Below, piece by piece: positions 1-22,629 of a DNA stretch of 35,976 nucleotides. The DNA comes from Gammaproteobacteria bacterium. GTDB taxonomy: Bacteria; Pseudomonadota; Gammaproteobacteria; Enterobacterales; GCA-2746155. How positions within the stretch are numbered: position 1 is the stretch's first letter; each line of letters starts with the position of its first letter. The notes beneath the pieces were generated by a model. It made no database searches and was not told the DNA's origin. It saw only the letters and a program-made list of their open reading frames with translations. Both the position numbers and the translations under genes were made by a program. The DNA is taken from assembly GCA_002746155.1 (NCBI GenBank), contig NVWF01000016.1, positions 1 to 35,976 on the forward strand. Direction: 5' to 3'.

Positions 1-99
1 GTGAAAAATAGATTATTTTTGGGGCATGACTTATGGAAAACTTGATTAGAGTTAGAGTTGGGTAAGACCTGATATAGTGTTTGTTCTACTTATACGCCC
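1..99 (+). repeat. IS91-like element end (candidate oriIS), copy 1
   Basis: These 99 bases are repeated without a visible difference at 2526-2624, where they lie about 105 bp downstream of an IS91-like transposase stop. That is where the replication-origin end (oriIS) sits in this rolling-circle family. The copy may extend left of the window. It contains an AT hairpin (AAAAATA, GAT, TATTTTT at 4-20) and ends with TATACGCCC. The next bases, 100-103, are CTTG, one of the two tetranucleotides (CTTG or GTTC) that IS91 elements are known to abut at their origin end. The repeat is seen directly; the oriIS role is inferred. Here the end cuts into mgtE. Confidence 0.65.
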
Positions 100-219
100 C
101 TTGATGTTAAAGAAAATGGACATTGATCCTGCCTTAGCAGGAGGAGTTATTTTAACCACCATTACAGATGTGTAGGACTAGTTGCATTTCTTGGATTGGC
201 AACTCTCATACTAGTTTAA
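100..219 (+). pseudogene. mgtE: 3' fragment of magnesium transporter mgtE
   Basis: Only the last 40 or so codons of an MgtE-type Mg2+ channel remain. Reading from TTG at 101 gives LMLKKMDIDPALAGG then VILTTITDV, the conserved start of the last transmembrane helix of MgtE. A one-base deletion near 173 (TA where a GTA-like codon is expected) puts the frame into a TAG. The next frame continues GLVAFLGLATLILV and stops at 217-219, exactly as an MgtE C-terminus should. The 5' part is replaced by the repeat at 1-99. MgtE facing PmbA is a familiar gammaproteobacterial arrangement, so this looks like the native locus, killed by insertion and then decaying. Confidence 0.75.
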
Positions 220-265
220 GCAAATAAACTGTTCTTTGAGATTATAATGCCTTGATTAAAGTCTT

Positions 266-1429
266 TTAATTGCCTGCCACTGTCATAGATTCCAGTAAGA
301 TAGAACCTGTTTGAGTTGAAAGTCTCGGATCGTAATCGTTTCCTATGGCGGTGATATTTGCCATCATTTCTTTTAGTGCGCCTGCAATAGTTATTTCTTC
401 AACTGGGAACTGAATTTCACCATTTTCTATCCAAAAGCCGCTTGCACCTCTTGAATAATCTCCTGTAAGAATATTGACGCCTTGTCCCATCACCTCAGTG
501 ATCAGTATACCTTTTTGCATTTTCTTCAACAATTGATTGAAGTTAAGATCAGAACTACTCACCCTGAGGTTGTGAACGCCACCTGCATTTGCTGTGGTTT
601 GCATATCTAGGCGTCTAGCAGAGTAACTACTTAGGACGTAGTTTGTAATAACTCCGTCTTGAACAAAATGTTGCCTTCTGGTCTCAACACCTTCTGAGTC
701 AAATGGTGCACTTGCCAATCCTTCTAAGATAAATGGATCTTCATAAATATTAATGGTTGATGGAAACACCTTTTCACCGAGATGGTCCAATAGGAAGGAA
801 GATTTTTTATAAAGATTGCCACCTTTTATTGCAGAGATAAAGTGGCCAATAAAACCTGCAGCAACATCAGGTGTTAGAAGAACTGGGTATTCACCCGTTG
901 TGATAGGTTGAGGACAAAGCCGAGCGATGGTACGTTCAGCGGCTTTTCTTCCGATCACTTTATCGTCTAATAAATTTTGCGCATTTCTTGCAACGGTATA
1001 ATAATAATCTCTTTGCATTCCTTTGCTATCTTCAGCGATCGCAACGGCAGAAAGAGAATGACGGCTTGTGGGATAACCTTCAAGAAAACCATGGGAATTT
1101 CCATACATTCGAATTCCCCTGTGACTAGAGAAACTTGTTCCATCGCTACTTTTTATTCGTTTATCGGTTTGTAATAGTTCTCTCTCTGCTGTCATAGCAC
1201 GGTCAATTGCTATTTCTGGAGTAATACCCATAGGATGGTCTAGTTGCAAATTCTTTACACTAGATGCCATCAGATCAGCATCGACTAAACCAGAATAAGG
1301 ATCTTCACTGGTTTGTTTTGCGATTGATATGGCGGCTTCAACGGCTGAGGTAATGGCAGCCGGGCTAGTATCTGAAGTACTGGCATTGCCTTTTCTTTTA
1401 CCCATGTAAACCGTTATGCCAAAACCACA
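266..1429 (-). pseudogene. pmbA: PmbA/TldE C-terminal portion, 5' end displaced
   Basis: These 387 codons match residues 65 to the C-terminus of PmbA/TldE, the partner subunit of the TldD/TldE metalloprotease that trims peptides such as microcin B17 precursor and degrades CcdA in E. coli. Family landmarks include FGITVYMGKRKG, GNSHGFLEGY, LLDHLGEKVFP, PFDSEGV, TGDYSRGASGFW and the terminal MTVAGN-type end. The first 64 codons are absent; they lie 4 kb away, at 5819-6010. Upstream of 1429 the frame stays open to 1504 through 25 codons antisense to the transposase. A chimeric 412-residue protein is therefore possible on paper, but it has no visible ribosome site. The segment 1016-1429 is duplicated at 5405-5818. 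Confidence 0.9.
1016..1429. repeat. pmbA: 414-bp direct repeat, left copy (inside pmbA)
   Basis: By reading, identical to 5405-5818, in the same orientation, offset 4389 bases. It encodes PmbA residues 65-202. The left edge diverges as G/C before CATTCC, and the right edge diverges after AAAACCACA. The two copies flank a 3975-bp insertion. Crossover between them would delete 4389 bp and restore pmbA. Confidence 0.95.
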
Positions 1430-2420
1430 TTCACTTTCATATGCTGTTACTTGATGGTGTTTACGCGGTAGATGACTATGGAAAAATGCGGTTTCACAGG
1501 ACAAAGGCTCCGGAATTAAAAGAACTTACCAAGTTAGTTCATACAATCAGCCTCAGAGTAGCCAGATTTCTTGAACGAAGAGGCTTACTTGAAAGGGATG
1601 AAGAAGACCGTTATTTAACCCTTGATTGTCTGGATGAAGAACCGATGCAGCAACTACATGGTCATGCCATTACTTATCGAATTGCACTAGGACCCCAACA
1701 AGGTCGAAAAGTCTTTACCTTGCAAACTATTCCACAGAGTAATGCTGGATCTTCTCTCTCAACACGTGTTGCTACGGAAGCCTTTCAGAGAGATAAGCTT
1801 GAGCGGTTGTGTCGATATATTGCTCGACCTGCTGTATCAGAAAACCGATTGGCAGTTCTTAGCAATGGCAATATTCGCTATCAACTCAAAACACCTTATC
1901 GAGATGGAACCACTCATGTGATATTTGAACCTCTGGATTTTGTTGCTAAGCTTGCAGCATTGATACCTAAACCGAGAGTTAACTTAACCCGGTTTCACGG
2001 AGTATTTGCACCGAACAGCAAATGGCGGGAGAAGGTTACTCCTGCAAAGAGAGGAAAAACTAAAAAGCTACCAGAAAAAGTGGATTTTGATAAATCACCT
2101 GCTAAACGCCATGTAGCAATAACCTGGGCACAGCGACTAAAGCGGGTATTCAATATCGACAAGGTGAATTGATGCATAGCATCAAGAGAGGGTGCCTGGG
2201 GTATATAGAAACTTGTGATGAATGTGGAGGTACTGTAAAAGTCATCGCCTGCATTGAAAACCCTGCAGTGATACCCAAAACATTCACTGCGTTCATGGGG
2301 CAAGCTTTAGACAGGATACTTTCCTACCTCAAAAGACAGAAGTCTGGTCAGATTATAAATTCAAATAAATCACAGATTTCATTATTACCTGAAGAAAGGG
2401 CCCCACCAGTTGACAGCTAG
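1430..2420 (+). pseudogene. IS91-family transposase, 5'-truncated and frameshifted
   Basis: Two frames, 1441-2172 and about 2200-2420, together make the C-terminal part of an IS91-type transposase. Landmarks are FHMLLLDGVY at the junction, RVARFLERRGLL, LTRFHGVFAPNSKWRE, VTPAKRGK, WAQRLKRVFNID and then IETCDECGGTVKVIACIE, ending in LPEERAPP. In relatives RVFNID runs straight into IETC. Here about 44 extra bases (2162-2205) separate them and bring a TGA at 2170-2172, so the protein is broken. A second, in-frame insertion of about 12 codons (PKTFTAFMGQAL) may interrupt the region after IENPAVI. The zinc-finger-like cysteines (CDEC) lie in the second frame. The family call is from remembered motifs. 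Confidence 0.8.
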
Positions 2421-2525
2421 TTCGCTTAATAATACTTGAGATTATTCATATACTATTTTTTGGTAGGGTAGTGCATGCCTTTTTTCTGAAAATAGTGATA
2501 TAAGAACGAATATTGTAGAGTATTT

Positions 2526-2624
2526 GTGAAAAATAGATTATTTTTGGGGCATGACTTATGGAAAACTTGATTAGAGTTAGAGTTGGGTAAGACCTGATAT
2601 AGTGTTTGTTCTACTTATACGCCC
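2526..2624 (+). repeat. IS91-like element end (candidate oriIS), copy 2
   Basis: Second copy of the 99-bp sequence at 1-99, here in its expected place downstream of the transposase remnant. The bases after it are ATTG rather than CTTG, followed by ytoQ sequence. This fits three of four bases of the usual IS91 target, so the flank may have changed or the target rule may be relaxed. Confidence 0.7.
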
Positions 2625-2895
2625 ATTGTTTGTATTTATCGCCAAAACGAATGATTGCTACATCGCAATTATTGATTAGCGTTGTTGTTCTGATAGCATT
2701 TACTTTAGCGGATTTGTGGTCGCGCCAGAAACTTTTATCTTCAGCGCCTAGTAAATCACCGGCACCATCACTTTTATCATGATCGGTCACTGGGGATGAA
2801 AAGGATATTGAAAGATTATTTTCTTCGCAGCCTTGAATTATTTTCTCTCTCCAGTCGGTATGTATTTCACCAGAAAGATAGACGTTTAATTTCAT
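2625..2895 (-). pseudogene. ytoQ: YtoQ family protein, C-terminus removed by IS end
   Basis: Starts at ATG 2895 with an AAGG ribosome site about nine bases upstream. The protein opens MKLNVYLSGEIHTDWREKI and continues with SPVTDH, LGAEDKSFWRDHKSA, NAIRTTTLI and VAIIRFGDKYKQW. These are signature stretches of the YtoQ family, about 150 residues, of unknown biochemical function and distantly like nucleoside 2-deoxyribosyltransferases. After KYKQW the native sequence stops at the IS91-like end; three further codons come from the element. Around 60 C-terminal residues are missing, and I do not see them elsewhere in the window. It is probably non-functional. Confidence 0.8.
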
Positions 2896-2983
2896 ATTGT
2901 TTTGCCTTGATTGAAGTTGAAACTAATCCTAGCAAAATACAATCCATTTCTCAATTTAGAAAAGCACTTGGAGTGGGCTAAAT

Positions 2984-3006
2984 AAGGCTCTGATTGACAG
3001 AGCCTT
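2984..3006. terminator. Hairpin between ytoQ and the lysine-rich gene
   Basis: A perfect 9-bp stem (AAGGCTCTG / CAGAGCCTT) with an ATTGA loop. It lies 50 bp past the stop of the minus-strand lysine-rich gene and upstream of ytoQ'. Neither side has a U-tract, so it is a weak or factor-assisted terminator, or another stable hairpin. Confidence 0.4.
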
Positions 3007-3056
3007 AGCTAAATTAGAAAGCCTGGGTTCATCTCAGGAATAACGATTTTTAACCG

Positions 3057-3350
3057 TTAGTTTTTCTTTGGGTCTTTTGCTTTCTTTTTGTCCTTCATTT
3101 TCTTTTTCATTTTCATTTTTTTATCTTTCTTACTTTTAGCGGCTCTGCTGTTGTCACGCCAATCATCTTCGTGTTCAGCCCCTCCATGTTTGACTTTCTG
3201 TTTCGCTTTATGTTTCGCTTTTGTTGCTTTATCTGCGGCCTTTGTTACAGGTGCTTTGGTTCGATCTTCTTTTGCTTTGGCTGCGTTGACTGTTGCTGAG
3301 GAAAAGGTCATCACTAAGATTAATACAGCTATTTGTATAAGTGTTTTCAT
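3057..3350 (-). CDS. Exported lysine-rich small protein
   Basis: A 97-residue protein with a typical signal peptide (MKTLIQIAVLILVMTFSSAT, cleavage likely after VNA near residue 23). The mature part of about 74 residues is extremely basic, with 27 lysines by my count, and ends in a run built from KKDKKMKMKKKMKDKK. A clear ribosome site GGAGAG lies six to seven bases before the ATG. The only acidic patch is AEHEDDWRD. There are no cysteines and no enzymatic motif. The composition suggests a periplasmic or secreted polycation that could bind nucleic acid, lipopolysaccharide or an acidic partner, but nothing shows which. The opposite strand is also open, because lysine codons read backwards as Phe/Leu codons. 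I do not recognise a family. Confidence 0.65.
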   Translation of the reverse strand: MKTLIQIAVLILVMTFSSATVNAAKAKEDRTKAPVTKAADKATKAKHKAKQKVKHGGAEHEDDWRDNSRAAKSKKDKKMKMKKKMKDKKKAKDPKKN

Positions 3351-3502
3351 AAGTTCTCTCCAGTTCGTTGTGAAATCATTCTAAACATATCAAAAAGTAA
3401 TCGACTTTGCCATGTTAATTTTTCACCTAGAGGTTCTTACATCTGCTAGCTTGTATGGCTTTGATAGATTAGTATGTTGTTGAATAATTAGAGGATCTGA
3501 AC

Positions 3503-5014
3503 ATGCGCTTTTTAAAATGTATTTTGATATTCATTGTTACGACTAGCCTACTGTCAGTAAATGGTAGTCCAAAAATTGATCTGAGCGATGTTGGTGACGT
3601 TTATATTGAAAATTCTGGCTCTGAAGATGCACAACAGCATTTTCTTCATGGTCTGGCTCAATTGCATAATTTCGAATATTGGTCAGCGGCTGAAGATTTT
3701 CAGAAAGTGCAACAAATTGATCCCGATTTCGCCTTAGCTTATTGGGGAGAAGCCTTGACCTATAACCATACTATTTGGATGAGGCAGGATAAGAAAGCTG
3801 CCTTGAAAGCACTTAATAAATACGCGAGTAGCCCATCTAAACGAGAGAAAAAAGCAAAGTCATATCTTGAGCGTGACTTATTAAAAGCTGTAGATATTTT
3901 ATATGGTGAAGGCACTAAACAGCAGCAGGATGATCTTTATTTATCCTTTATGGAAAAGCTTCATAATAAATATCCAAAAAATGTAGAAATAGCGAGTTTT
4001 TATGCCCTTGCCATTATGGGGACAGCGCATGAGGGGCGGGATTTCGGTCTTTATATGCAATCTGCAGCTGTATCTCAAAACTTTATTAAGGATTACCCTC
4101 GACACCCAGGGATCGCTCATTACTTGATCCACGCAACCGACGATCCAACACATGCGCCCTTGGGACTTGCGGCAGCAAATGCCTATGGTGATATCGCCCC
4201 GAATGCAGGTCATCCTCAACATATGACATCACATATCTTTCTTGCATTAGGTGATTGGAAAGGTGTCATCAAAGCGAATATACGAGCAATGGATCTGACT
4301 AATGCAAAACGAAAAGCAGAAGGAAAAGGACCCACTGGTTGCGGGCACTACGCATCTTGGTTGCAGTATGGCTACTTACAACAAGGCGATCAGCTTGCTG
4401 CACATGACATGATGCTGTTGTGTCATCAAAATGCTCAAGAGGATAAATATAAAAGACTTAGTTCTTATGCATGGCAGCGCGCTTTGTATTTACTCGATAC
4501 CGAAGATTGGGATGGTGATGTTGCACAGATGAGTGTAAGTTTTGGTGACGATCATCGAGCTCTATTTGAAAATCAGCTGATGGATGGCTGGATCGCTGTA
4601 AAAACAAATAATGCGAGTGCTGCTCGTTCTCAATTGAACAATGCCAACCAGACTTTTGAGCTTATTAAGCAAGACTGGGAGAGTAAGAAGCTAGCCAAAG
4701 ATCAGCCAGAACGCAAACTACCGATTGTGCAATTGAAGCAACTAGAGGCGCTAATAGTGTTACTTGAAGGTGAGCAAGAATCTGCTGTAAAAATTCTTCG
4801 CGAGGCAGTTGAAATCGAAAAAGCATTACCCTTTGGCTTCGGTCCTCCTAAACCAGCAAAACCAAGTCTTGAACTTTTAGGAGAAGTGCTTATTTCTCTT
4901 AAGATGTATGATGAGGCAAAGACCGTTTTAGAATCAAGCCTTAAACGTACTCCCAATAAGGCATTGACTGTTAAAGCTTTGGCAAAAATTGGAAAAATAA
5001 TTAAGCAGCAGTGA
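3503..5014 (+). CDS. Exported tetratricopeptide-repeat protein
   Basis: 503 residues with an N-terminal signal peptide (residues 1-21). Helical repeats follow, with typical TPR spacing (FALAYWGEALTYNH, residues about 75-90; ALTVKALAKIG at the end). The central block HPGIAHYLIHATDDPTHAPL then IAPNAGHPQHMTSHIFLALG (about residues 197-250) is a conserved histidine-rich signature. I recognise it from a large family of uncharacterised exported TPR proteins in marine Proteobacteria. The histidines could bind a metal, but no peptidase motif is present. The ribosome site is GAGGATC before ATG 3503. The next gene starts 37 bp downstream, so the two are probably cotranscribed. The gene lies wholly inside the segment that interrupts pmbA, so it is probably displaced relative to its original neighbours. 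Confidence 0.8.
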   Translation: MRFLKCILIFIVTTSLLSVNGSPKIDLSDVGDVYIENSGSEDAQQHFLHGLAQLHNFEYWSAAEDFQKVQQIDPDFALAYWGEALTYNHTIWMRQDKKAALKALNKYASSPSKREKKAKSYLERDLLKAVDILYGEGTKQQQDDLYLSFMEKLHNKYPKNVEIASFYALAIMGTAHEGRDFGLYMQSAAVSQNFIKDYPRHPGIAHYLIHATDDPTHAPLGLAAANAYGDIAPNAGHPQHMTSHIFLALGDWKGVIKANIRAMDLTNAKRKAEGKGPTGCGHYASWLQYGYLQQGDQLAAHDMMLLCHQNAQEDKYKRLSSYAWQRALYLLDTEDWDGDVAQMSVSFGDDHRALFENQLMDGWIAVKTNNASAARSQLNNANQTFELIKQDWESKKLAKDQPERKLPIVQLKQLEALIVLLEGEQESAVKILREAVEIEKALPFGFGPPKPAKPSLELLGEVLISLKMYDEAKTVLESSLKRTPNKALTVKALAKIGKIIKQQ

Positions 5015-5051
5015 AGATAAGAACTATGAAGTTGAAGGAAATTCTCAGATT

Positions 5052-5404
5052 ATGAAAAAGTCCGTTCCTGAAATTCGTTTTCTCCTACTCGGCTCTCTAT
5101 TTCTAGCCGCTAGTCCTACAGTTGCAGAAGATTTATTAGATCCTGTAAATGGAGCAGAAATTACTCATATCAATAGTCAGGCAAACGCGACAACATTTGC
5201 AGCTGCAAACCTAATTGATAAGGATTTCTCAACCGCTTGGAGATCTCCAGCTGGTCAATATACTAATGACTTCATTTTTAGGTTTGGCGTTGACTACCCG
5301 TTAAGATGTTTTGATGAATTTAGTTTCACCGGCTATGGTGGTTCTACGTCTGTGGAAACATTTATGTTATTAACGACGAATGATCTGGCGCTTGAACAAG
5401 ATAC
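5052..5404 (+). pseudogene. Exported discoidin-like protein, 3'-truncated
   Basis: Begins with a signal peptide (MKKSVPEIRFLLLGSLFLAA to about residue 25, cleavage near VAEDL). The next stretch, ATTFAAANLIDKDFSTAWRS, resembles the opening strands of an F5/8 type C (discoidin, carbohydrate-binding) domain, in which a LIDGD-S-W pattern is typical. At 5404/5405 the native sequence ends abruptly and the reading frame runs 15 codons antisense into the pmbA repeat before stopping at 5450. The rest of the protein is lost. It follows the TPR gene by 37 bp with a GAAGGA ribosome site and was probably its operon partner. The discoidin assignment is pattern-based and moderate. Confidence 0.6.
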
Positions 5405-5818
5405 CATTCCTTTGCTATCTTCAGCGATCGCAACGGCAGAAAGAGAATGACGGCTTGTGGGATAACCTTCAAGAAAACCATGGGAATTTCCATACATTCG
5501 AATTCCCCTGTGACTAGAGAAACTTGTTCCATCGCTACTTTTTATTCGTTTATCGGTTTGTAATAGTTCTCTCTCTGCTGTCATAGCACGGTCAATTGCT
5601 ATTTCTGGAGTAATACCCATAGGATGGTCTAGTTGCAAATTCTTTACACTAGATGCCATCAGATCAGCATCGACTAAACCAGAATAAGGATCTTCACTGG
5701 TTTGTTTTGCGATTGATATGGCGGCTTCAACGGCTGAGGTAATGGCAGCCGGGCTAGTATCTGAAGTACTGGCATTGCCTTTTCTTTTACCCATGTAAAC
5801 CGTTATGCCAAAACCACA
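5405..5818. repeat. pmbA: 414-bp direct repeat, right copy (inside pmbA)
   Basis: Right-hand partner of 1016-1429. On the pmbA strand it follows directly from the true 5' end of the gene (5819-6010), so this copy is in the native position. Its distal edge at 5405 joins the truncated discoidin-like gene. Confidence 0.95.
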
Positions 5819-6010
5819 GTCTCGATTAAACTCAACAGTTTCTACGTCATTATTCCTGACATTGACTGATAATCCTGATTGTTTGCTCACACCAACTTCA
5901 GCAGAGGTTGCCCCGAGGTTTTTTGCTTTATAGAGGATGTCTTTGATTAAATTAGACATGGTGCTCTTCTCGAAATTAATATCAAGATCATCACTAGTTA
6001 GTGCAGTCAT
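5405..6010 (-). pseudogene. pmbA: PmbA/TldE N-terminal portion, 3' end displaced
   Basis: Residues 1-202 of PmbA. The first 64 residues, missing from the 266-1429 piece, are here: LIKDILYKAKNLGATSAEVG, then GLSVNVRNNDVETVEFNRD, a close match to the family N-terminus. After residue 202 (..EDSKGM) the frame runs 23 codons into the insertion and stops. Two starts are possible: ATG 6010 with GGAG about 11 bases upstream, or ATG 5959 with a GAGAAGAG-like site; I favour 6010. Joining these 64 codons to the 387 at 266-1429 gives 451 residues, against 450 in E. coli, so nothing but the insertion and duplication separates them from an intact gene. The gene is divergent from darP, as in E. coli. Confidence 0.9.
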
Positions 6011-6070: not shown

Positions 6071-6142
6071 TATACCCGTTCCACCTCAAGATGTATATTT
6101 CAGCATGACTAGAAACATGCATCTTGAGGTGGAACGGGTATA
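6071..6142. repeat. Large inverted repeat (MITE/REP-like hairpin)
   Basis: 31-base arms at 6071-6101 and 6112-6142 around a 10-base loop. The outer 22 bases are perfectly complementary (TATACCCGTTCCACCTCAAG and reverse complement), and the inner nine carry two mismatches. It sits in the divergent pmbA/darP spacer. A single arm with about 30 of 35 bases matching recurs at 20587-20621, so it is a dispersed repeat rather than a terminator unique to this spot. Confidence 0.85.
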
Positions 6143-6259: not shown

Positions 6260-6769
6260 GTGTCAAAAAAACAAAACACTGAGCAGCTAGAGCCAGATGA
6301 AGTGAGTAAAACCGAAGTCAAGAAGGAAATGATTGAGCTGCAAAAACTTGGTATTAAGTTAGTTGGTCTAGCGGATTCTCAGCTAAAAAGAATGCCACTT
6401 CCTGAAAACTTATCCGAAGCTATTCAGTCTGCAAAGAACATTACTAAACATGGTGGTTTAAAGCGGCAATTAAAATATATTGGTAAACTGATGCGCCACC
6501 TTGATCCTGAACCCATTATCCAAGCTTTCGATGTTATTGAAAATGGTAATCAAGAAGATAAACATTTATTTCATTTGAAAGAACAGTGGAGAAGTAAATT
6601 ACTTGAAGGTGATAATCAGAAGTTAACAGAATTTTTGAATCGTTATCCTGAAGCAGATGTACAGCGACTCAGACAATTAATAAGAAACTATAAAACTGCC
6701 AAATCAGATGATAAAAAAGCCCAGATAGCTCGACAGGTATTTAAGATTATCAGTGAACAGCTTGTCTAA
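6260..6769 (+). CDS. darP: Ribosome-associated protein DarP (YjgA)
   Basis: 169 residues starting at GTG 6260 with an AAGGG ribosome site about eight bases before. It matches the DarP/YjgA (UPF0307, DUF615) family: LKRQLKYIGKLMRHLDPEPI, HLKEQWRSKLLEG, EFLNRYPEADVQRLRQLIRN and a C-terminal ARQVFKIISE. DarP is an all-helical protein that binds late 50S assembly intermediates in E. coli. It is divergent from pmbA and converges on tldD with a one-base gap, the usual order of this cluster. The N-terminal 25 residues are acidic and variable, as in relatives. I see nothing unusual apart from the rearranged upstream neighbour. Confidence 0.92.
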   Translation: MSKKQNTEQLEPDEVSKTEVKKEMIELQKLGIKLVGLADSQLKRMPLPENLSEAIQSAKNITKHGGLKRQLKYIGKLMRHLDPEPIIQAFDVIENGNQEDKHLFHLKEQWRSKLLEGDNQKLTEFLNRYPEADVQRLRQLIRNYKTAKSDDKKAQIARQVFKIISEQLV

Positions 6770-6770
6770 G

Positions 6771-8240
6771 TTAAGTTGAAGTTCCACCAACGGTTAGTTC
6801 ATCAACTTTCAAAGTAGGTTGTCCTACTCCAACAGGGACGCTTTGTCCTTCTTTCCCACAAACGCCTATACCTCTATCGAGTTCTAGATTATTACCTACC
6901 ATACTCACCTTGGTTAGCACATCAGGTCCATTTCCAATTAAGGTTGCGCCCTTGATTGGGGTGGTTATTTTTCCATCTTCAATCAAGTAGGCTTGGCTTG
7001 CCGAGAAAACAAATTTGCCTGAAGTGATGTCCACCTGACCACCTCCAAAGTTACTGGCGTAAATACCACGCTTTACACTTTTGATAATTTCTTCATGCTC
7101 CGAATCACCTGGTAACATATAGGTATTGGTCATTCTTGGCATAGGTAGATGGGCGTAGGATTCTCTTCGACCGTTACCTGTTGATTGCTCACCCATAAGG
7201 TGGGCATTACGCTTATCTTGCATATAGCCTTTAAGTATGCCGTTTTCGATTAACATGGTGCAATTAGTTGGTGTACCTTCATCATCAATTGTTAAGGAGC
7301 CACGGCGCTTAGCTAAGGTGCCGTTATCCACAATAGAACAAATATCAGAGGCAACTCTCTCACCAATTCGACCACTAAAGGCAGAGGAGCCTTTTCGATT
7401 AAAGTCTCCTTCTAGTCCATGCCCAATGGCTTCGTGCAATAAAACGCCAGGCCAACCTGGACCAAGTACCACGGTCATACTGCCTGCTGGCGCATCTATA
7501 GCTTCTAAATTAATCAAGGCCTGATCAACAGCTTCCTTAGCTAAGATTAAGCTTTCTTCTGAAGCTGCGTAGTTGCCATCAGTAATATTTATAAACCTTT
7601 GATAGTCTTCACGTCCTCCAGCACCGGAAGAGCCTTTCTCTCTACGTTTTCCCTGCTCAGCTATGACACTTATGCTGCATCTTACTAAGGGTCTTACATC
7701 TGCCATGAGGGTTCCATCACTTGCCATGATCATCATTTGTTCATAACTACCTGTGAGACTAGCAGTAACTTGTATTATTCTAGGGTCGAGTTTTCTTGCA
7801 TAAATATCGATTTGTTCTAAGAGGGATATTTTTGCCTTATCGGGTATGCTTGATAGGGGATCTATATCAGTATACAAGGGACTAATTTGTCGATTAGTTG
7901 TAGGCTGTAATATTCCACTTTGTCCTGCTTTTGCGATACTTCTAGCAGCAATTGCTGATTGTTGTAGGGCGGGAAGTAACAAATCTTCTGAATAAGAAAA
8001 GCCTGTTTTTTCACCGGTCATGGCTCTGATGCCAACACCTGAGTTGGCGTTATAACTTCCGTCTCGTACAATGCCATCCTCTAAACTCCATGATTCATAA
8101 CGATGGCTTTGAAAAAATAAATCGGCAGCATCAACTGACTTACCTAAAATACTATTCATTACAGCACTTAAATCATTCAAGGTCATTGAACCTGGTGCTA
8201 GAAAGTGGTCTTCTACGGTTTGTAATATTGTTGATGTCAT
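6771..8240 (-). CDS. tldD: Metalloprotease subunit TldD
   Basis: 489 residues from ATG 8240 (an in-frame TTG at 8267 would add nine, but GGA lies well placed before the ATG); E. coli TldD has 481. The zinc motif [11 protein letters not shown] (HExxxH, near residue 270) is intact. Other family blocks are [15 protein letters not shown]-type, [54 protein letters not shown] and [16 protein letters not shown]. TldD is the catalytic half of the cytosolic TldD/TldE heterodimer, which degrades unfolded or modified peptides threaded into its cavity. Here the partner pmbA is split, so the complex may be absent unless the locus reverts. It is the last gene of the mre-rng-yhdP-tldD run. A 13-bp tandem duplication (TCAAAGCTTAATT at 8264-8276 and 8278-8290) lies just upstream. 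Confidence 0.95.
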
Positions 8241-8298
8241 TGTATTTATTCCAAGTTTAATTTTCAAAGCTTAATTATCAAAGCTTAATTCTCTAAAT

Positions 8299-22511: not shown

Positions 22512-22629
22512 AGCCCAGCTAGTGATGACTATTTCCACAGGACGCCCGTGAATACATCCTTGTAGGGCTTCGCTGCAGCATCCCTGCTGCAGAGACCTGT
22601 GGAAATAGTCATCACTAGCTGGGCTTTTT
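22512..22629. repeat. Long perfect palindrome with inner conserved hairpin
   Basis: Arms of 30 bases (22512-22541 and 22596-22625) are exact reverse complements, beginning AGCCCAGCTAGTGATGACTA. The 54-base centre has its own stem potential, with CTGCAG twice and GCAG/CTGC pairs around CATCC. The right arm runs into TTTTT (22625-22629), so plus-strand RNA would end here like a terminator. It lies between divergent def and the hydrolase gene, where no plus-strand gene precedes it. It is probably a mobile palindromic repeat; the centre sequence resembles short repeats that I recall from other gammaproteobacteria. Confidence 0.85.

Follow-up and report, generated by a model that had tools for sequence, protein, structure and literature searches.

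A pmbA gene divided by an ISCR-like element between 414-bp direct repeats in a gammaproteobacterial contig: integrated unit or assembly path?

Contig NVWF01000016.1 of an uncultured gammaproteobacterium (assembly GCA_002746155.1) carries the gene pmbA in two parts, with a truncated IS91-related element of the ISCR type between them. The locus raises the question of whether a mobile unit has entered a chromosomal gene or whether the assembly path makes it appear so. We analyzed the window, which is positions 1 to 35,976 of this contig (C49; 81,536 bp) and starts at the contig's first base. The genome comprises 52 contigs (3.52 Mb) with a completeness estimate of 90%; no close relative above 55% identity was found in GTDB r220. 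One paper describes the pair TldE (PmbA) and TldD as a protease (PMC5810440). The explanation that we prefer, on which our confidence is evenly balanced, is that the locus derives from rolling-circle ISCR units, one of which integrated into pmbA by homologous recombination over a duplicated part of the gene.

The duplicated part is a 414-bp direct repeat of pmbA (R). Its two copies, 1016-1429 and 5405-5818, are 100% identical, which is far beyond chance; they start 4389 bp apart and cover PmbA residues 65-202. A preliminary description of this DNA, made from the letters alone, had reported this exact duplication as well as a pmbA in two parts (266-1429 and 5405-6010) that has normal length once joined. 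Both observations hold: the two parts match PmbA profiles (Table 1) and, joined once, encode 451 aa. Between the copies lies a foreign segment of 3975 bp (1430-5404), and 4389 bp is this segment plus one R. The same description spoke of a 4-kb insertion; the segment is there, but the left part of pmbA is not plain native flank, as window positions 1-97 are another copy of the element's ori end. An ordinary transposon target duplication is rejected as the source of R, as 414 bp is too long and no element end lies at the inner ends of the repeats. A large chromosomal tandem duplication followed by deletion is also rejected, as the assembly contains no second copy of 2625-5404.

The left portion of the segment (1430-2622) consists of an N-terminally truncated ISCR-clade transposase gene (tnp') and its oriIS end. 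The match to NF052416 spans ~199-457 of the 509 profile positions; truncation of the gene keeps the score under the full-length cut-off. The fragment falls in ISCR clade Ia and in the Y2_Tnp family, and the IS91 model matches weakly. Plasmid ISCR elements have ~66-70% amino-acid identity to the fragment, and the first of these matches adjoin sul1. The IS91-like rolling-circle element proposed earlier is present, with the ISCR branch as the best fit (NF052416, 2e-76; ~66% amino-acid identity to the sul1-linked ISCR1 transposase). The ori terminus, ...CTACTTATACGC, is exact at both sites in C49 and at one in contig C5, and has two mismatches in C31 and three in C13 and C22. The 22-bp oriIS of ISCR1 (sequence from PMC13023784) is matched at 14 positions, in register and with the same terminus; such matches occur by chance about once per 10,000 window positions.

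At both sites in C49, the ori end is joined to a gene fragment (mgtE' and ytoQ', respectively). The two joints start at the same base after ...TATACGC, and comparison with intact mgtE and intact ytoQ places the first host base exactly at each joint, flush with the ori end. At the left edge of the window, ori adjoins mgtE at CCCTTG, and another contig, C19, represents the empty site. At 2622, the joint of ori with the truncated ytoQ reads CCATTG, a point that the genome's intact ytoQ (C49:36.3 kb) crosses without a break. The left edge might instead represent a full-length ISCR copy in mgtE of a sub-population, the pmbA insertion being a separate event and the metagenome-assembled genome (MAG) a mixture of two strains. 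The clean joint of ori with mgtE and the empty site in C19 are consistent with this; in addition, a one-base difference separates mgtE' from mgtE as distinct alleles, and scattered N letters near many contig ends suggest unresolved variation. However, no further copy of the element with at least 99% identity exists in the MAG, nor any full-length transposase, and the contig passes from R into tnp' without a branch at 1430. We consider this mixture of strains very unlikely.

C19 also bears on the state of pmbA. A partial third copy of R (139 bp) is located at its right end, and from there C19 continues through the whole C-terminus of pmbA into an intact, convergent mgtE encoding 452 aa. Window positions 98-1154 and C19:30803-31860 are identical at 1057 of 1058 positions, with one base absent from the window near 172. 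When C19 is joined to C49 from 5405 onward, an uninterrupted 451-aa PmbA results with no base changed; the empty site of pmbA is thus readable from the two contigs. In Idiomarina-type relatives, rapZ, pmbA, darP, tldD, and yhdP lie together, and the order in G001, a genome of the same genus as the host, is mgtE ... pmbA - darP - tldD - yhdP. Judged from the sequences, the order restored by joining C19 to C49:5405 is the ancestral one. In every relative genome with a match, pmbA occupies a single open frame. The split of pmbA by an insertion, as first described, is hence present in the contig but unproven as a state of the cell, since C19 and C49:5405 give an intact, syntenic pmbA.

These observations are also those expected if the chromosomal pmbA is intact, running from C19 into C49 at R, and the loop is a free circle of 4389 bp (with another of 2525 bp), a copy elsewhere, or part of another strain. 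The split would then be an artefact of an assembly path through R. Restoration of the reading frame and of the relatives' gene order without a base change, together with the single frame in the relatives, speaks for such a path, as do the contig graph and the contig ends.

Exactly 99 bp are common to many contig ends of the host assembly, suggesting a short-read graph with a k of about 99-100, and the left edge of C49 has 99 bp in common with the contig's own interior (2526-2624). In a graph built from C19 and C49 at k=99, there are only four branching nodes, and the sole predecessor of the first 99-mer of C49 is at C49:2525. Flow can enter only from C19 and leave only through the right side of C49; the remainder forms two cycles. 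Cycle Y (4389 bp) contains ytoQ', a gene for a 97-aa protein, a TPR-protein gene, a gene that starts at 5052 and is cut at 5404, R, tnp', and ori. Cycle B (2525 bp) contains mgtE', the pmbA C-terminus, R, tnp', and ori. R, the truncated tnp, and ori are present in both cycles, and the point of closure is in each case the exact oriIS end. What is observed directly is the four assembly joints, two of which carry the ori end, and the closure of both cycles in the graph. The graph fits equally well (i) an intact pmbA with free circles, (ii) a pmbA with Y inserted, and (iii) Y with tandem copies of B; a mis-phased contig end would also give the same graph.

Contig ends in this assembly overrun into the sequence of other contigs by up to 12 kb. 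The left ends C23:226-12242 and C27:1-12017 share ~12 kb at 100% identity, one being reversed relative to the other, as compared at either end and over 3.4 kb in between; C23 has a 225-bp overhang without a match in C27. C24 overlaps C3 by 5 kb at 99.7% and C22 by 1.4 kb at 99.9%. These overlaps are either real duplications or redundant contigs. Because of such long, near-identical overlaps, a contig end is weak evidence of physical linkage. N letters, single or mixed with bases, lie near many contig ends (e.g., stretches L062, L063, L101, and L154), and some are spaced by multiples of three, as if several variants had been merged. An artefactual path must also accommodate the fact that C49 crosses R twice as one contig, a join for which there must have been some basis, perhaps read pairs spanning the 414 bp. 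In addition, a free circle needs its own maintenance, and no replication gene is seen except the truncated tnp. We regard an intact chromosomal pmbA with the loop outside it as possible, though on the unlikely side.

For the integration of rolling-circle units at pmbA, which we prefer, the following course is proposed. An ISCR-like (IS91-related) element, reduced to the C-terminal part of its transposase and oriIS, would have been fused to a 414-bp piece of host pmbA. With transposase acting in trans, replication begun at oriIS would have proceeded leftward past the missing terIS into neighboring DNA. The products would be units consisting of captured DNA, R, tnp', and ori, two of which, Y and B, would be visible here. 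Y would have entered pmbA by homologous recombination over R, placing R on both sides of the foreign DNA, much as happens with ISCR1 circles at the sul1/qacE segment of class 1 integrons. B would be a later unit, formed when reading from that ori returned into pmbA and mgtE. We infer the rolling-circle origin, the order of events, and integration rather than free circles. The Campbell-type integration of an IS91-like circle put forward in the preliminary description is plausible, with a precedent in ISCR1 and the ori end at two joints, but integration and a free circle are not separable in the graph.

The ends of the segment allow another course without ISCR activity, in which illegitimate recombination (template switching, or homology-facilitated integration at uptake) placed a 3975-bp fragment between the copies of R with the ISCR element as a passenger. 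The ends appear arbitrary, 1430 lying inside tnp and 5404 inside a gene, with no element end. Compared with its counterpart in the genome, ytoQ' has only 76% identity and the TPR gene 83-84%, so the fragment may stem from a related lineage; its G+C content does not differ from that of the host. However, illegitimate recombination leaves unexplained why the same ori end is fused to mgtE beside the same pmbA segment at the left edge, and why the graph closes into cycles through ori. We find this course improbable.

Several observations weigh against the integration of a rolling-circle unit. Neither 1429/1430 nor 5404/5405 coincides with an element end, which makes a minimum of two additional illegitimate joins necessary; both joints are unexplained in detail. 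Neither a terIS end nor a complete HUH transposase is present at the locus, the element being cut at 1429/1430. The assembly as a whole contains no complete transposase (none above the family cut-off); therefore, any activity would depend on transposase supplied in trans or since lost. The ori flanks read are CCCTTG, CCATTG, CAGTCC, ACCGCA, and CACTGT, and the IS91/IS801 tetranucleotides (GAAC, CAAG) are not found there on the expected strand; the CTTG seen at one joint corresponds to CAAG only as its complement. The identical stretch from the mgtE' joint to tnp' (pmbA C-terminus and R, ~1.26 kb) is longer than ordinary short-read inserts. Finally, the 12-kb C23/C27 and 5-kb C3/C24 overlaps mean that collinearity at contig ends is not guaranteed. 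As a candidate ISCR target, CTTG is rejected, being present at only one of the flanks read.

An older case in the same genome has a layout that parallels that of pmbA. A 413-bp 3' fragment of dxs (C5:15052-15464), which has 87% identity to the homologous stretch C27:85658-86070, abuts an N-truncated ISCR tnp with an ori end (C5:15463-16707). Because this example is independent and older, capture of host gene fragments seems, from the sequences compared, to have occurred more than once in this genome. No flanking duplication like that of pmbA was found at C5 or C31. Decayed pieces of the same ISCR-like element (67-93% identity) occur in C3, C5, C12-C14, C16, C22, C24, C27, and C31; several have internal deletions, and none is full-length.

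Table 1 Features of the pmbA locus in the window
Feature	Position	Strand	Evidence or remark
oriIS (right) end, first copy	1..97	+	identical to 2526-2622; ends ...CTACTTATACGC; cut by contig start
mgtE 3' fragment (mgtE')	98..219	+	fused to oriIS at CCCTTG; frameshift from missing base near 172 relative to C19
pmbA, C-terminal 387 codons	266..1429	-	NF008268, 538 bits; PF19289, PF19290, partial PF01523
R, copy 1	1016..1429		100% identical to 5405-5818
ISCR/IS91 transposase gene (tnp'), N-truncated at pmbA junction	1430..2172	+	PF04986, 8e-26; NF052416, 2e-76
oriIS end, second copy	2526..2622	+	ends exactly at CCATTG flank inside ytoQ'; 14/22 against ISCR1 oriIS
ytoQ' 5' part (~residues 1-88), cut by oriIS	2623..2895	-	PF11071 / TIGR03646
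97-aa Lys-rich protein, hydrophobic signal-like start	3057..3350	-	no family match
503-aa TPR-repeat protein, intact open reading frame (ORF)	3503..5014	+	shortened 83% relative at C8:34938; 40% homologue in G001
Secreted-type protein gene without identification, cut at R junction	5052..5404	+	ORF 5052-5450 runs into R
R, copy 2	5405..5818		100% identical to 1016-1429
pmbA, N-terminal 202 codons	5405..6010	-	PF01523/PF19290

The cargo between tnp' and the second R is listed in Table 1. The ytoQ' fragment is 76% identical to the intact ytoQ at C49:36307-36579. The TPR gene has a 40% homologue in G001, and a shortened copy (155 aa) with an internal deletion lies at C8:34830-35298, about 83% identical in the first 120 residues. 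With identities of 76% and 83-84%, recent duplication of the genome's own copies is rejected as the source of ytoQ' and the TPR gene. No relative of the gene at 5052-5404 was found. The cargo contains no defence genes, and no resistance gene was seen in it. Base composition does not differ from that of the host (39.4% against 38.4% G+C) and is uninformative about a foreign origin.

Beyond the N-terminal part of pmbA, darP (6260-6769) and then tldD (6771-8267) follow in conserved order. A 31-nt near-perfect inverted repeat (TATACCCGTTCCACCTCAAGATG...) is located between pmbA and darP (6071-6142) and is possibly a repetitive hairpin or a small mobile repeat. A perfect 30-nt inverted repeat with a 54-nt spacer is located at 22512-22625.

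If integration is true, TldE would be cut at residue 202/203 in the molecules concerned and could be restored by recombination over R; reversible on/off switching of TldE by this route, as suggested earlier, is conceivable. Most of what is known of ISCR-type capture concerns resistance genes on clinical plasmids; according to a 2018 paper, no experiment had demonstrated the transposition of an ISCR element (PMC6218425). A natural locus with both putative circle joints at the exact oriIS base, together with the older dxs example, is a place to test the pickup of chromosomal DNA and its re-entry by homology. More speculatively, and with the chances rather against it, an environmental bacterium may harbor an equivalent of the complex class 1 integron that lacks resistance genes. 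Its ISCR units would carry core-gene fragments (pmbA, and dxs at C5) and use these fragments as anchors of homology for integration, excision, and amplification at the housekeeping locus, and TldE and the tail of MgtE would vary within the population. The locus also calls for care with short-read MAGs: where a long perfect repeat divides a gene, the contig may follow a path through a loop, and the gene need not be broken.

Related systems share parts of this arrangement. Campbell-type, plasmid-like integration likewise uses one crossover between a host fragment on a circle and the chromosome, which leaves the fragment on both sides, but the free circle here is only putative. Helitron capture (PMC4778049) is similar in that HUH-type rolling-circle transposition duplicates host gene fragments through a missed end; it is an analogy only, as Helitrons are eukaryotic, capture at the opposite end, and involve no homologous-recombination step. 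In the laboratory, IS801 shows one-ended transposition, carries adjacent gene fragments, and makes truncated copies (PMC3189936, PMC6354349). IS801/IS91 elements and the present one have in common a constant ori end, a variable other end, capture of adjacent gene fragments, and truncated copies movable in trans. However, the ends and targets of IS801 are GAAC/CAAG-type tetranucleotides, unlike the ori flanks here, and the present transposase belongs to the ISCR branch.

The complex class 1 integron shares the order repeat, ISCR transposase, oriIS, captured genes, repeat; a flanking repeat that belongs to a gene (sul1/qacE in the integron, pmbA in the present locus); and the possibility of tandem repetition of units. 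The ISCR1 oriIS terminus is similar in register (TATACCC, against TATACGC here). In the proposed model, ISCR1 makes a circle with part of the 3' conserved segment (3'-CS), and this circle enters another 3'-CS by recombination; in some cases this happens several times and tandem units result. One ISCR1 case has six 5134-bp tandem repeats (PMC13023784). In another, ISCR1-mediated homologous recombination gave tandem copies, two in number, which were lost on passage (PMC8386438). The present locus differs in having a truncated transposase, no resistance gene seen in the cargo, and a housekeeping-gene anchor, the repeat being pmbA and not the 3'-CS (qacEdelta1-sul1); moreover, its host is uncultured and its circle is putative. 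A complex class 1 integron in which sul1 is exchanged for pmbA has the geometry of the present locus.

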